A stretch of DNA of 64,000 bases, taken from Streptomyces sp. MMBL 11-1 (GTDB lineage Bacteria; Actinomycetota; Actinomycetes; Streptomycetales; Streptomycetaceae). The stretch spans positions 3,661,001-3,725,000 of the forward strand of contig NZ_CP117709.1 of assembly GCF_028622875.1 (NCBI RefSeq). The letters run 5' to 3'. Positions 37,132 to 51,761 of this stretch are shown one piece after another (position 1 is the first letter of the stretch; each line of letters starts with the position of its first letter). Under the pieces are notes generated by a model that saw nothing but the letters and a program-made list of their open reading frames with translations, was not told where the DNA came from and ran no database searches. Made by a program: the position numbers and the translations under genes.

Positions 37132-37276
37132 GCGACGCTGTGACGTAGTGATCCATTTTCTTGAAACACATAAGAAAACTCTAAGGGCAACCCAGAATCG
37201 ACAACACTTCGTCACAGCGTCGCACGCCCGGTTCGCTGCTCAGAAGTCACCGACTCCCTTCATATAAGTAGGAGGG
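37132..37276 (+). promoter_or_regulatory. Regulatory module A: 14-bp inverted repeat around an AT-rich core, followed by the phage box
   Basis: GCGACGCTGTGACG (37132-37145) and its exact complement CGTCACAGCGTCGC (37210-37223) flank 64 bases that are AT-richer than their surroundings (TTGAAACACATAAG, CTCTAAGGGCAACCC). Twenty-two bases later comes GTCACCGACTCCCTT (37246-37260), then TAAGTAGGAGG. A related copy lies at 58467-58592. The 380-base gap 37004-37383 holds the int terminator, this module and a GC-rich leader with no convincing gene. A further possible stem, AAGTAGGAGGG with CCCCCTACTT, spans 37265-37355. Confidence 0.7.
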
Positions 37277-37383: not shown

Positions 37384-37456
37384 GCTTCTGTAGCTCAGTT
37401 GGTAGAGCGGCCGGCTCTTAACCGGCTTGTCGTTGGTTCGAGTCCAACCGGAAGCA
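37384..37456 (+). tRNA. tRNA-Lys (CUU)
   Basis: A 73-base cloverleaf: acceptor GCTTCTG/CGGAAGC (one G-U), D-stem GCTC/GAGC, anticodon stem GCCGG/CCGGC with loop CTCTTAA, which gives anticodon CTT, and T-stem GTTGG/CCAAC with TTCGAGT loop. Discriminator A; no CCA encoded. It is the first gene after module A. A phage-borne Lys tRNA would support AAG codons, which are frequent in the late genes. Confidence 0.9.
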
Positions 37457-37686
37457 CGTCAGGAACGGCACGACTTGCGTATTGTGGTCGGGTGCCCGTG
37501 GCAGGGGTGATGTGGTTCGCCTGCCTTCATGGCGATACGGAGTACCGACTATGGCGTGGTCGGTTGCGCGTGAGCGTATGCAGGGATCTTCGGATGCCTG
37601 ACCGGTTCGAATCCGGACTATCGCACAGGGGCGCGTACGGCGTTGATCGTGGCGGCGCGCTCGACCACTTGAAAGGGGCTGGGCCC

Positions 37687-38358: not shown

Positions 38359-38543
38359 GGGGAATGCGGTCCGAAAGTTCGGAAACTTTCCCTACAGCGA
38401 TCCCGGCCCCAGCTCGGAAAACGCGCGCTAGGTGTGACGCCGGACCCCGGCCCCCCAGCGACCACGACCCTTGATACCACTGGGCAATCGGCACTTCGGC
38501 ACGCTGAGAATGGGTCAGTTAACGACCTGTTAAGGGGGTGCTA
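38359..38543 (+). other. Probable cos/packaging region
   Basis: This gene-free 185-base stretch sits between HNH and terS, where cos lies in many phages of this order. It contains a GC-rich block (GGACCCCGGCCCCCCAGCG) and a hairpin GAAAGTTCGGAAACTTTC (38370-38388 area). The nick site cannot be read without knowing the phage ends. Confidence 0.35.
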
Positions 38544-38987
38544 ATGAGCCGCGCGAAGTCCCCAGACATGCGAACCGGGAATGCGAATACCGCCGCTTCC
38601 GTGGACGCTGCCCCCATCGTGTATGAGGGTCGAGCGCCCCGGGTGCCTGCCCATTTGAAGGCCACGGGCAAGGACGTTTGGCGCAATGTCTGGTCAGCCG
38701 GCATGGGTGCCTACTCCCCCGAAACTGACCGGAACGTAATCCTTCGGTACTGCGAACTTCATGACCGACGCGCTGACCTACTCGCGCTTGTCGACGCTGA
38801 CGGCTTCATGTCTGAGGGGTACAACGGTCAGCCCGTTGCACACCCGATGCTCCGCTATGTCGAGTCGACGGAGAAGGAACTCCGCTCGATTGAAACGGCG
38901 ATTGGCTTCACGCCTGAGTCGCGCTTGCGCCTGGGCATCGTTGCCGCTGAGGCCCGGAAGGTGTCCGCCGGTCCGGAAGATTTCTGA
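38544..38987 (+). CDS. terS: Terminase small subunit (P27 family)
   Basis: A 147-residue small terminase. The region KDVWRNVWSAGMGAYSPETDRNVILRYCELHDR, in two blocks, is typical of P27-type subunits, which recognise phage DNA and recruit TerL. ATG 38544 has AAGGGG seven bases upstream. The TGA stop is inside the acceptor stem of the following tRNA. The reading frame is the same as that of terL, with only TGA codons between. Confidence 0.85.
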   Translation: MSRAKSPDMRTGNANTAASVDAAPIVYEGRAPRVPAHLKATGKDVWRNVWSAGMGAYSPETDRNVILRYCELHDRRADLLALVDADGFMSEGYNGQPVAHPMLRYVESTEKELRSIETAIGFTPESRLRLGIVAAEARKVSAGPEDF

Positions 38988-39058
38988 GTGTGGCGTAACA
39001 GTGGCAAGCGCACGGGGTTTCAGACCCCGGGGCATGGGTTCGACTCCCGTCACTCAGA
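38984..39058 (+). tRNA. tRNA with anticodon UCA (would read UGA)
   Basis: A complete 75-base cloverleaf: acceptor CTGAGTG/CACTCAG, T8, D-stem GCGT/GCGC, A14 and GG in the D-loop, anticodon stem CGGGG/CCCCG, loop TTTCAGA (T33, anticodon TCA, G37), variable loop GGGC, T-stem ATGGG/CCCGT with TTCGACT, discriminator A, no CCA. All stems pair. UCA is the anticodon of opal suppressors and of tRNA-Sec. G37 and C1:G72 with A73 are not what tRNA-Sec or tRNA-Trp usually show. The amino acid cannot be told from sequence. It starts four bases before the end of terS. Confidence 0.75.
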
Positions 39059-39077
39059 CTGAAAGGGGGGATGACCG

Positions 39078-40643
39078 GTGACAGGAATTGATCCGGTCAT
39101 CGCTCGCCACATCCCCGCTGACGCCCCGTTTCCTTCTGAGGGTTACCGGGTGGCGAAGTGGATTGAAGAGTTTTGCTACCTGACTGGGAGCTTCGCCGGC
39201 CAACCGTTCCGGCTTCTCCCGTGGCAGCGTCAGCTACTCATTGACTCGTACGAACTGACGCAAGACACCTTCGGGCGTTGGCGTCGAAAGCACCGCACGG
39301 TTGTTGTGTGCGTGGCGCGCAAGAACGGCAAGAGCACGATTGCCGCTGCCATCATGCTCTATCACCTTGTGGCCGATCGGGGCGACGCTCAGCGGCAGAT
39401 CATCGCCGCTGCGAATGACCGCAATCAGGCGCGCATGGTCTTCGACTCCGCGAAGCAAATGGTTAACGCGTCTCCGAAGCTGAGCGCGGTATGCACCGTT
39501 CAGCGCGACGTGATCCGGTTCAAGGACAACACTTACCGGGTCGTGTCTGCGGACGCCGGACGTCAGCAAGGTCTCAACCCTTCCGCTGTGAGTCTGGACG
39601 AATACGCGTTCTCGAAGAACTCCGACTTGTTCGACGCGCTGACGCTGGGTTCCGCCGCGCGTAACCAACCGATGTTTCTGATCATTTCGACCGCTGGGCC
39701 TGATCCGGACGGACCCTTCGCCGCGCTGTGTGAGCAAGGTGAGCGGGTCAACTCCGGTGAGGCTGACGACCCGACGTTGTTCTATCGGTCGTGGGGCCCG
39801 AAGCTGGGTCAGACCGTGGATCACCTCGACCCCGAAGTGTGGGCGGCGTGCAATCCGTCGTACGAGATTTTGAACCCAGATGACTTCAAGGCGGCAGCGC
39901 AGCGGAGCACGGAAGCTAGCTTCCGCATCTACCGACTGAGTCAGTTCGTCCGTGGCGCGTCCACGTGGCTTCCGCATGGGCTTTGGGATTCTCTCGTCTC
40001 GACGGACGACCCGCTTGAGCCTGGGGACGAAGTTGTCTTGGGCTTCGATGGGTCCTGGAAGGGCGACAGCACGGCCCTAGTCGCTTGTCGCGTACGGGAC
40101 TTGAAGGTGTCCGTCCTGGGCCACTGGGAAGCGCCGGCCGACGATGTGCATTGGCGTGTCCCCATGGCGGACGTCCGCGATTCGCTTCACGTCGCGCTCG
40201 ACACGTACCGGGTCCGGAACCTTGTTGCCGACCCGTACCGCTGGGAAGAGACGCTAGACAACCTTGAGGCTGACGGCTTCCCGGTTGAGGCGTTTCCCAC
40301 CAACTCCCTGAAGCGCATGATCCCAGCGACCCAGGCGATTTACGACGCCTGCCGCGATGGCCGGTTGTGCCACGACGGGAATCCGGCGCTAGCTCGCCAC
40401 ATCGGAAATGCCGTTCTGAAGGAAGACAAGAACGGCGCGCGAGTAACGAAGGAATACGCCGCAAGCCGTCGAAAGATTGACCTTGCTATCGCGATGATCC
40501 TTGCTGTTCACGGCGCGATCATGTGGCGCGAAGACAACGGGGCCCACGTCGATACGGCGATTCTCGCCACGTGGGAAGGCGACGACGGGCACGTGTTCAC
40601 GTCCGGTCTGCCCGACGCTGACGCCTACTTCTCTGACATCTGA
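39078..40643 (+). CDS. terL: Terminase large subunit
   Basis: A 521-residue packaging motor. The ATPase half has TVVVCVARKNGKSTIAAAIM (Walker A type) and later VSLDEYAFSKNSDLFDAL (Walker B, DE). The nuclease half has VLGFDGSWKGDSTALVACRV and MIWRED-type acidic residues toward the C-terminus. It cuts and pumps phage DNA into proheads. GTG 39078 follows GAAAGGGGGG. The phiC31-like order terS-tRNA-terL-portal is clear. Confidence 0.93.
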   Translation: MTGIDPVIARHIPADAPFPSEGYRVAKWIEEFCYLTGSFAGQPFRLLPWQRQLLIDSYELTQDTFGRWRRKHRTVVVCVARKNGKSTIAAAIMLYHLVADRGDAQRQIIAAANDRNQARMVFDSAKQMVNASPKLSAVCTVQRDVIRFKDNTYRVVSADAGRQQGLNPSAVSLDEYAFSKNSDLFDALTLGSAARNQPMFLIISTAGPDPDGPFAALCEQGERVNSGEADDPTLFYRSWGPKLGQTVDHLDPEVWAACNPSYEILNPDDFKAAAQRSTEASFRIYRLSQFVRGASTWLPHGLWDSLVSTDDPLEPGDEVVLGFDGSWKGDSTALVACRVRDLKVSVLGHWEAPADDVHWRVPMADVRDSLHVALDTYRVRNLVADPYRWEETLDNLEADGFPVEAFPTNSLKRMIPATQAIYDACRDGRLCHDGNPALARHIGNAVLKEDKNGARVTKEYAASRRKIDLAIAMILAVHGAIMWREDNGAHVDTAILATWEGDDGHVFTSGLPDADAYFSDI

Positions 40644-48962: not shown

Positions 48963-49769
48963 GTGGCTGAGTTGAGCGACTGGACGTGTGAGTACAACGG
49001 CGTTGTCATGGGCTTGCCGGAGTCTGCTATATCCATCGTCGGGGTTGATGGGCTTCTGTCCGCCCCGGAGATCCGTACGTCTGACCTTGTCCTTGTCCAG
49101 CGGAACGGGCTTTGGCCTGGGCGCGACTACATGAACGGGCGCACGGTCACGCTGACGCTTGAGGTCTACGGCTCGACGCGCGAAGAGTACACAGCGGCCC
49201 TCAATGCCCTTCAGGCGGCGTTTCAGCCCTGCACCGATGAACTCCCCTTCCGGTTCCGTTTCCCGGGCGCAGCGGGCGACCAGACAGCTTTCGTCATGGC
49301 GCGTGTGCGTCGGCGTAGCGCTCCGCTGGACCTGAGCTTCGCTTACCGCACCTGCAACATGGTCGTCGAGCTTTTCGCGACGTCTCCGTTTATCGAGGGG
49401 GACGCGCCGCGCACCATCCCCGTGCGGTCAGCCGGCCCCGACGATCCGGGCTTCACGCCAATCAGCCGGTTCACTCAGTACGGGACGTTCAACGCGCGCC
49501 CAGCGGTCGAGATTCACGGGGCGACTTCCCCGACGCTGACCGACGAAGCAACGGGTGAGTTCTTCGGCGTGAACTACACGGGCACGGTCCGTGTCGACTC
49601 CCAGGCGCAGACGGTTACCGATGGGGCAGGCGCGTCTATCGCTGGGCTGATCAAGCCGGGTTCGACGTGGCCGGAGTTCGCCCCGGGTGACCATCGCTTG
49701 AAGCTGACCACTGGGAACGCGAACCTTCAGGCAACGGCCGTTGTGTCGTGGGTAGACAGGTGGGTTTGA
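48963..49769 (+). CDS. Distal tail protein (phage tail family)
   Basis: A 268-residue protein with the distal-tail type start MAELSDWTCEYNGVVMGLPE and a YLF..LPFRFRFPGAAGDQTA type beta core. Position after the tape measure is that of Dit proteins, which form the hub for tail-tip proteins. The gene ends with tandem TGA TGA, in frame with the next gene. Confidence 0.75.
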   Translation: MAELSDWTCEYNGVVMGLPESAISIVGVDGLLSAPEIRTSDLVLVQRNGLWPGRDYMNGRTVTLTLEVYGSTREEYTAALNALQAAFQPCTDELPFRFRFPGAAGDQTAFVMARVRRRSAPLDLSFAYRTCNMVVELFATSPFIEGDAPRTIPVRSAGPDDPGFTPISRFTQYGTFNARPAVEIHGATSPTLTDEATGEFFGVNYTGTVRVDSQAQTVTDGAGASIAGLIKPGSTWPEFAPGDHRLKLTTGNANLQATAVVSWVDRWV

Positions 49770-49778
49770 TGACGCGAC

Positions 49779-49793
49779 GTCACCGACTCCCTT
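49779..49793 (+). promoter_or_regulatory. Phage box GTCACCGACTCCCTT, in the Dit-tail tip gap
   Basis: One of seven copies of this 15-base element in the prophage. It is followed by CGTGTAAGTAGGGGG and a TTG-initiated tail gene. Probably part of a phage promoter or leader. Confidence 0.6.
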
Positions 49794-49814
49794 CGTGTAA
49801 GTAGGGGGTGCGCC

Positions 49815-50870
49815 TTGTCTGAGTTTCAGGTTTTGCAGGTAGACGTGAAGACCGGCAACGTTGTAACGGCGTTGCCGGTTACGGGAATTGGCTACACGGA
49901 GACGTTGAACGCCGCCGGGACGTGCTCCGTTGGTGTACCGCTCGACGCTGCCAATCCGGCCACGTTGGAGCCTGGGCGTTCGGGCCTTGTGGTCACGCGT
50001 GACGACGTCCCCGTGTGGGGCGGACCGGTCTGGACGGCTTCCGCTGACCTTGCCGCCGGAGTGCTCACGCTGAACGCCGCTGGGTGGCACAGCTACTACG
50101 CCGCCCGGTACTTGAACGCCGCGAAGGGGTACAAGGGCAGCAAGGATCAGGCTCAGCTTCTTCGGGACTGGATCGGGTACGCGAACACGAACGACGGAAT
50201 CGGCACGGTCGTCACGGGGCTCACGAACACGGGGCGTACGCGTTCCCGCACGTGGGCTTTCTCGGAGTTCAAGAACATCGCTGAGGCGGTCAACGAACTT
50301 GCCGACGAAGACGGCGGATTCGATTTCCGGTACGAAACGTTCTGGGCGAACACAGCGCGCACCCGGGTGGGTAACCGGCTCATGAAGTCGGCGCGCGTTT
50401 CGCTCGCCTTCCCGTCGCTGACTCATGGCGTGAACGCGAACGTGACAGCAGTCTCTTACGACGGGAGCCGGCTAGCGACGCGCGCCTATGCCTTCGGGGC
50501 GGATCTCGGTACGGGCGTCAAGCCTTTCGCTTCGTCGGTCAACGCGCTCGACACACCGACGCTGCAACAGGTCGTCACGTACGCGGACCTTCGGTCAACG
50601 GCGGAGCTGCTACCGAAAGCCGGAGCCCTGGGCGCTGTCGGTCGTCAGGTGATTGCGATTCCTTCGGTTGAGCTTTACCCGGGTGTGTACAGCCCCGGGA
50701 CGCACATGTTGGGCGCGCACGGAACGGTGAATGTCGATTCCGGCTATGTGCAGTTGCTCGAAGAGTTCGTGATCAGTGAGCGACAGATAGCCGTAGACGT
50801 GAATGGAACCGAGACGGCGACGCTGTCTCTGGCGAGTAAGGAAGTGTTTGTAAGTGGCGATTCAGGCTAA
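49815..50870 (+). CDS. Tail tip / minor tail protein (Tal-like)
   Basis: A 351-residue protein starting at TTG 49815 (after AGTAGGGGG) and beginning LSEFQVLQVDVKTGNVVTAL. It resembles siphovirus minor tail proteins of the gp37 (ReqiPepy6) type, rich in beta strand, with repeats of the VTA-S/D kind. It lies between Dit and the fibre. The start codon is weak and its frame equals that of the upstream gene. Confidence 0.7.
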   Translation: MSEFQVLQVDVKTGNVVTALPVTGIGYTETLNAAGTCSVGVPLDAANPATLEPGRSGLVVTRDDVPVWGGPVWTASADLAAGVLTLNAAGWHSYYAARYLNAAKGYKGSKDQAQLLRDWIGYANTNDGIGTVVTGLTNTGRTRSRTWAFSEFKNIAEAVNELADEDGGFDFRYETFWANTARTRVGNRLMKSARVSLAFPSLTHGVNANVTAVSYDGSRLATRAYAFGADLGTGVKPFASSVNALDTPTLQQVVTYADLRSTAELLPKAGALGAVGRQVIAIPSVELYPGVYSPGTHMLGAHGTVNVDSGYVQLLEEFVISERQIAVDVNGTETATLSLASKEVFVSGDSG

Positions 50871-51465: not shown

Positions 51466-51761
51466 TGGCTGACATTGTCGGCACGGCCGAAGTCGTGGGG
51501 GGCGCGTGCCTGTTCCTGTTGCTGGTCTACCGGCAGGTTCGGACCGGCGCGCGGGATGCGTGGCGGGAAGTAGCGGAGTCCCAGACAGCGCGTGCTGAGG
51601 CTCTTGACGCTCAGGTGCAGACACTCATTTCTGAGGTCCGTTCGCTGCGCCTTGAAAACGAAGCGCTCCGTATAGAGGTGGCGTCGCTGCGCAGAGAAAA
51701 TTCTGAGCTTCGTGAGCACATTGACAACTTGATTGGGGGCGCACGTGGCGATTCCGAATGA
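51465..51761 (+). CDS. Membrane-anchored coiled-coil protein
   Basis: A 98-residue protein with one N-terminal hydrophobic helix (VVGGACLFLLLVYRQV) and a heptad coiled coil (LRLENEALRIEVASLRRENS). Starts at ATG 51465, overlapping the stop TGA before it. It sits among tail genes; a spanin- or holin-like role is possible but unproven. Confidence 0.6.
   Translation: MADIVGTAEVVGGACLFLLLVYRQVRTGARDAWREVAESQTARAEALDAQVQTLISEVRSLRLENEALRIEVASLRRENSELREHIDNLIGGARGDSE

Follow-up and report, generated by a model that had tools for sequence, protein, structure and literature searches.

A tRNA gene with the anticodon UCA, which matches the stop codon UGA, lies within the packaging genes of a Streptomyces prophage, and it raises the question of whether UGA has acquired a second meaning in this phage and, if it has not, how the presence of such a gene is to be explained. 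The window, by which we mean the whole stretch of 64,000 nucleotides that was analyzed, is a portion of an 8.0-Mb contig in a genome of 8.5 Mb. The coordinates of the features discussed here are given in Table 1.

ARAGORN, which the initial annotation had named as a means of checking the gene, identified two tRNA genes in the window, viz. a tRNA-Lys(ctt) and, at 38984-39059, a 'tRNA-SeC'(tca). The latter was also matched by the Rfam model RF00005, which spans its full length with a score of 56.1 bits (gathering score 29; E 2.1e-9), within the range of 36.1-79.7 bits observed for the 76 other RF00005 matches in this genome. All 21 pairs of its cloverleaf are formed, 19 of them Watson-Crick and two G-U, and direct reading of the letters identified T8, A14, G18G19, T33, the T-loop TTC, a short variable loop, the TCA anticodon and G37. 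The agreement of ARAGORN with RF00005 and the complete pairing bear out the 75-base cloverleaf with a UCA anticodon that had been proposed initially; the gene is real and more than a chance resemblance, and it has the complete cloverleaf and the conserved positions by which functional tRNA genes are recognized structurally. The anticodon sits in a 7-base loop with U33, as is required of an opal suppressor tRNA. The cloverleaf (-26.8 kcal/mol) is not the minimum-energy fold (-32.3 kcal/mol), and in the isolated anticodon arm the open 7-base loop has an energy of -7.4 kcal/mol vs. -9.9 kcal/mol for a collapsed 3-base loop. With all 21 pairs preserved, the gene does not look idle and decaying, although a recent insertion could also account for this. 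In 54 other stretches of the same genome ARAGORN identified 74 tRNA genes, and no TCA anticodon is present among them.

Table 1. Features of the prophage in the window, with the basis of each assignment.
Feature	Position	Strand	Basis
Putative late lytic promoter CACCGACTCCCTTCATATAAGTAG	37248..37271	+	Exact match to a 15-base motif
tRNA-Lys(CTT), in the usual int-gp29 slot	37384..37457	+	ARAGORN; Rfam, 71.1 bits
gp31, terminase small subunit	38538..38987	+	Translation; 81-90% identity with the gp31 proteins from six named relatives
tRNA with UCA anticodon	38984..39058	+	ARAGORN; Rfam RF00005; cloverleaf; direct sequence reading
Second in-frame UGA after gp31	39060..39062	+	Frame reading
Third in-frame UGA, in the frame of gp33 and ending three bases before its start	39072..39074	+	Frame reading
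gp33, terminase large subunit, TGA stop	39078..40643	+	92% identity to Vash TerL, full length
Copies of CACCGACTCCCTTCA	37248, 49781, 54867, 58568, 59905, 60262, 62330	+	At most two mismatches

Surroundings of the gene in the prophage

The right part of the window is a prophage of the phiC31 group, with integrase, tRNA-Lys, gp29, gp30, gp31, the UCA tRNA, gp33 and the late genes, which were assigned by protein alignment to phiC31, BT1, Vash, Samora, Shawty, and TG1. The hosts of these phages, together with the named genome contigs that carry the nearest gp31 genes, point to a streptomycete as the host. The position between gp31 and gp33 of this phiC31-like prophage confirms the description of the gene as a phage tRNA among the packaging genes. 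In each of the six phages named above the slot after the integrase carries an annotated tRNA. Upstream of the tRNA-Lys of the prophage there is a match to CACCGACTCCCTTCATATAAGTAG; in BT1, Vash, Samora, and Shawty this motif, followed by TATAGGTAG, precedes the tRNA slot, variants of it are present in TG1 and phiC31, and in the phiC31 record X91149 a 'promoter, late lytic' is annotated just upstream of the tRNA-Thr. Because this putative promoter lies about 1.7 kb upstream of the UCA tRNA, the latter should be carried on the late transcript, and the late-expressed setting that had been claimed for the gene agrees with its place among the packaging genes downstream of the promoter match.

The promoter-like motif CACCGACTCCCTTCA has seven copies, all of them on the + strand and downstream of the integrase, as compared to 0.21 expected by chance; these are probably the phage's own lytic promoters. 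All six relatives have a gene for gp45, a minor tail or virion protein, which is flanked by gp44 and gp46; this gene is missing from the prophage (49769-49815), and tblastn searches with the proteins of all six relatives gave no match to it at 1e-4. The prophage may be defective in its tail, or its tail may be different.

Other tRNA-like genes were also observed outside the window. A third such gene of the prophage, a tRNA-Ile(GAT) of 44.8 bits (contig C1, 3731096-3731167; L133:7096-7167), lies between the gp13 and gp14 homologues, an interval in which ARAGORN identified a tRNA-Gly in phiC31. The smaller contig C2 (399 kb) contains three clustered tRNA matches of 36-60 bits (371287-371846; L115), one of which is a tRNA-Ala(AGC) by ARAGORN.

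The gp31-gp33 junction in related phages

The junction was compared in 69 phage or prophage loci around gp31, comprising 11 named ones and 58 from two scans; this number includes duplicates, as several of the named phages recur in the viral contig set. None of the 69 loci has a tRNA between gp31 and gp33. The spacing of the two genes is 7-48 bases in 53 of them, 405-958 bases in nine and 95 bases in one (L069); the remaining six, in which gp33 aligned only from residue 20 (five loci) or had no match (one), were left out of the gap counts, leaving 63 with a measurable gap. The loci with long spacing include phiC31, where the insert is the reverse-strand gene 32. In the nearest relative by gp33 (L034, 96% identity) the junction consists of 11 bases. 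Gaps of 42-48 bases with inverted repeats were noted in L023, L025, L068, L073, and L074.

Within the genus, relatives of gp31 were detected in 19 of 392 genomes. No UCA tRNA is present at the junction in any of the five other prophages whose gp31 matched with E < 1e-69, one of which (L298) has a junction identical to that of L021; 13 genomes with weaker gp31 matches (E 6.5e-21 to 3.5e-4) lie outside this comparison. The 75 bases of the tRNA were found in one of the 392 genomes, namely that of the window itself, where at most two first-look candidates were scored per listed genome. A search for them in 72,556 plasmid records was negative, and the search of phage records that had been suggested at the outset retrieved only short pieces from nine records (E 2-7 in every case; 28-52% query coverage), which we read as chance. 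Pattern scans of viral contigs yielded 15, at least 120, none and four stretches. ARAGORN identified no tca tRNA in the 15 stretches, none in the four further ones, and none among the 62 tRNAs of the 120 stretches listed together with one locus from the family scan. In the family-wide pattern scan two of 394 genomes matched, viz. the window's own and one that has no tca tRNA at the locus. The expectation that related phiC31-type phages would share the gene finds no support in any of these samples, and from its distribution the UCA tRNA appears to have been inserted privately, at a junction where cargo is accepted.

The 95-base insert of L069 deserves separate mention. It matches best the body of a tRNA-Glu, in an alignment that shortens the D loop (L069:6440-6520), and the score of 22 was reached by none of 200 base shuffles (maximum 17.5), which preserve base composition only. 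Neither ARAGORN nor Rfam called a tRNA in it, and with caution it may be regarded as a decayed tRNA. It was rejected as an orthologue of the UCA tRNA, the mutual score of the two being only 2.5.

Acceptor end, UGA stops and possible roles of the tRNA

The UCA tRNA carries C1-G72, A73, and G37. Among 74 host tRNAs, C1-G72 and A73 occur together in all four tRNA-Pro and in none of the 70 others, and the best host matches of the gene are likewise tRNA-Pro(CGG), with 50 of 75 bases identical (67%), and tRNA-Pro(UGG), with 47 of 75; tRNA-His is near the top of the host comparison (score 15.0 vs. 15.5, the best two being tRNA-Pro). The top score with tRNA-Pro of 19.5 was reached by none of 200 base shuffles. 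Since this score is below the median best mutual score of 29.75 between host tRNAs of different amino acids, the assignment to a Pro lineage draws mainly upon C1-G72, A73, and G37. Among the tRNAs of related phages, C1-G72 and A73 are also present in four tRNA-Leu genes (three of them identical), whose variable arm is long; the single tRNA-Pro has C1-G72 but G73. In the available part of one source, C1:G72 is described as unique to tRNA-Pro among bacteria (PMC10164551), and the available part of another lists A73, G72, G15:C48, U17a, G49, G35, G36, and G37 as bacterial Pro determinants (PMC9976931); of these the UCA tRNA retains A73, G72, and G37, and G35 and G36 are replaced by C35 and A36. 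The Trp determinants in the same table are G73 and A1-U72 (PMC9976931), both of which are lacking in the UCA tRNA.

A Pro-like ancestor is most likely because C1-G72, A73, and G37 match bacterial tRNA-Pro, and judging from the tRNA body we give a Pro lineage roughly two chances in three; no donor tRNA was found, and the identity to tRNA-Pro is only 67%. The initial annotation had also considered that the gene could have been left over from a mutated tRNA. The tRNA-Pro-like acceptor end speaks for the mutated tRNA, whereas the fold, which shows no decay, speaks against a leftover. C35 is a determinant for arginine, and the base that follows G18G19 in the UCA tRNA is C. As G35 and G36 of Pro and G73 and A1-U72 of Trp are missing, and C35 is offset by the C after G18G19, no synthetase is an obvious match.

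The explanation that we hold with a little more confidence than doubt is that the gene is a private cargo tRNA with a Pro-like body and a changed anticodon, which would read UGA weakly and late at most and would be dispensable. A cargo tRNA gene would have been inserted at the gp31/gp33 junction in a single phage lineage, and the anticodon of its tRNA-Pro-like ancestor would have mutated to UCA. The gene would be transcribed with the late operon, and its transcript could be processed to a tRNA with the anticodon UCA. Owing to the changed positions 35 and 36, prolyl-tRNA synthetase would accept this tRNA poorly, and as no other synthetase fits well, readthrough of UGA would be weak and late at most and the prophage would not depend upon the tRNA. 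Some late readthrough is possible as far as can be judged from sequence.

The use of UGA in the prophage is that of an ordinary stop codon. Among its late genes 10 of 22 end in TGA, as compared to 58 of 125 in the six relatives (Fisher p = 1.0), where the proportion varies from 3 of 21 in TG1 to 13 of 20 in phiC31. Late genes were taken in the relatives as those ending before 20 kb and in the prophage as those with stops at 38,000-58,400, gp30 included; the row at 51573, an alignment overrun of the Vash minor tail protein, was dropped, which makes the count 10 of 22 and not 10 of 23. A count for the whole prophage (28 of 53), which retains an overrun row, was set aside; in the six relatives UGA ends 174 of 320 genes overall. 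In the prophage it terminates TerS, TerL, portal, major capsid, and six other late genes, and in the four named proteins the TGA is located at the ends of the orthologues or within about three codons of them. No internal UGA in a conserved protein was found in 287 tblastn alignments against the prophage, the two internal stops in these alignments (one TGA, one TAG) being overruns past the gene's own stop. Hence, UGA recoding of the table 4 type is ruled out by the ordinary TGA stop counts and the full-length orthologues, and the suggestion that the phage reads UGA as sense is not upheld; the prophage reads UGA as a normal stop and the UCA tRNA is no recoding device. In gp54, which was suspected of being a gene split by UGA, the frame behind the TGA is provided with a separate ATG at a distance of four codons.

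There is also no build-up of back-up stops behind the late TGAs in comparison with the six relatives. The next in-frame stop follows the ten TGAs after 0-63 codons (median 21), vs. a median of 8 for the relatives' 58, and a second stop within at most three codons is present behind one of the ten, vs. seven of the 58; this sole immediate second stop, in gp44, is again TGA. These observations bear upon the proposal that the gene is a selected opal suppressor, which would be charged late and, by reading UGA partially, would extend late proteins or disturb host termination. The intact fold, the UCA anticodon with U33, the late-promoter match upstream and the ten UGA-ended late genes as targets are all compatible with it, and Atu_ph07, according to the available part of its description (PMC6102473), sets a precedent of a UCA suppressor tRNA despite abundant UGA stops; however, the gene occurs in no examined relative, TGA stops are not avoided, back-up stops are not seen and no synthetase match is evident, and we regard such a selected role as unlikely.

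The placement of the gene offers other possibilities. Its first base is the final base of the last sense codon of gp31, and bases 2-4 are the gp31 stop codon TGA (38985-38987), so that the acceptor stem begins with bases that also form the end of gp31; the 3' strand CTCAG pairs fully with CTGAG. The start of the tRNA at the end of gp31 is either a chance beginning or fitted to the site. Due to this overlap, tRNA maturation and gp31 translation would compete for one RNA, which would suit a processing element, i.e. a tRNA whose fold matters and whose decoding does not, and at which RNase P and 3' processing would split the late mRNA between gp31 and gp33. A cut by RNase P before 38984 would also take off the gp31 stop codon, a loss that would be costly, and with none of the 69 relatives' loci having a tRNA at the junction, we consider this role distinctly improbable.

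Past the gp31 stop, the reading frame crosses the tRNA and the second and third UGA and enters gp33 without change. This arrangement invites the idea of a suppressor tRNA embedded in a UGA stop that the same tRNA reads. Ribosomes reading through the gp31 stop would then pass over the tRNA and keep it from folding, which would amount to negative feedback on the suppressor; cutting by RNase P would remove the gp31 stop, and a rare triple readthrough would yield a fusion of the terminase small and large subunits. The shared frame is unremarkable, since gp31 and gp33 are also in phase at 10 of the 63 relatives' junctions with a measurable gap; it may well be due to chance, and we give this idea very little credence. 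Equally doubtful is a role as decoy or substitute in countering a host defence that cleaves tRNAs, as a UCA tRNA would not be able to stand in for a cleaved sense tRNA. The available part of one report does mention proposals that phage tRNAs with altered anticodon loops evade tRNA-cleaving defences (PMC10264068). Lastly, a selenocysteine tRNA, to which the 'SeC' label of ARAGORN would point, is next to impossible, since this label derives from the anticodon, the short variable loop and 7-pair acceptor stem (in line with the non-Sec shape noted initially) and the fit of RF00005 to the whole gene exclude it, and in the host genome all matches to SelB fall short of the cut-off, as do those to RF01852 (tRNA-Sec), the UCA tRNA being absent from the seven listed (150 of 2028 candidates scored).

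Comparison with known systems

If charged, the UCA tRNA would represent a natural opal suppressor within a group of temperate phages that commonly use UGA as a stop, and it would provide a single, genetically tractable test of the use that such tRNAs have for phages with an unchanged code. If it is inert, it would show a route by which a phage cargo tRNA acquires a stop anticodon, and it would caution against concluding from a UCA tRNA that a phage has been recoded. A Streptomyces phage with a UCA tRNA was not found in the parts of the literature on phage suppressor tRNAs that were available, which is no proof of absence. A further role known for phage tRNAs, which according to the available part of PMC10865867 can be required by lysogens whose own tRNA gene is disrupted upon integration, was set aside: it applies to tyrosine integrases and tRNA sites, and the integrase of the prophage can be aligned with its counterparts in phiC31, BT1, Shawty, and TG1, for which the annotation is site-specific recombinase, integrase or serine integrase.

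Phages with an unchanged UGA stop are already known to carry UCA tRNAs. The Agrobacterium phage Atu_ph07, as described in the available part of PMC6102473, likewise has a single UCA tRNA, and phage and host both use UGA commonly as a stop. In that jumbo phage, however, it is one of 33 tRNA genes (PMC6102473), whereas the tRNA described here is solitary, lies between terminase genes and belongs to a temperate phage from a group with genomes of 40 kb. The anticodon and the predicted codon are also the same in phages predicted to use table 4, of which 11 of 73 encode a UCA tRNA; these are predicted to read TGA as tryptophan (PMC11210395, available part), whereas the prophage stops at TGA.

The preferred reading, a private cargo tRNA of Pro-like origin, finds parallels in two other groups of tRNAs. 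The cargo tRNAs in the int-gp29 slot of phiC31-like phages are similarly tRNA genes of varied identity that head the late region in related phages; the UCA tRNA differs from them in its gp31-gp33 slot and in its stop-codon anticodon. With bacterial tRNA-Pro it shares C1-G72, A73, and G37 and a loop UUUxxGA as in the host tRNA-Pro(UGG), and it differs from it, in positions taken from the cloverleaf, by C35/A36, A15/C48, and A49 in place of G35/G36, G15:C48, and G49.
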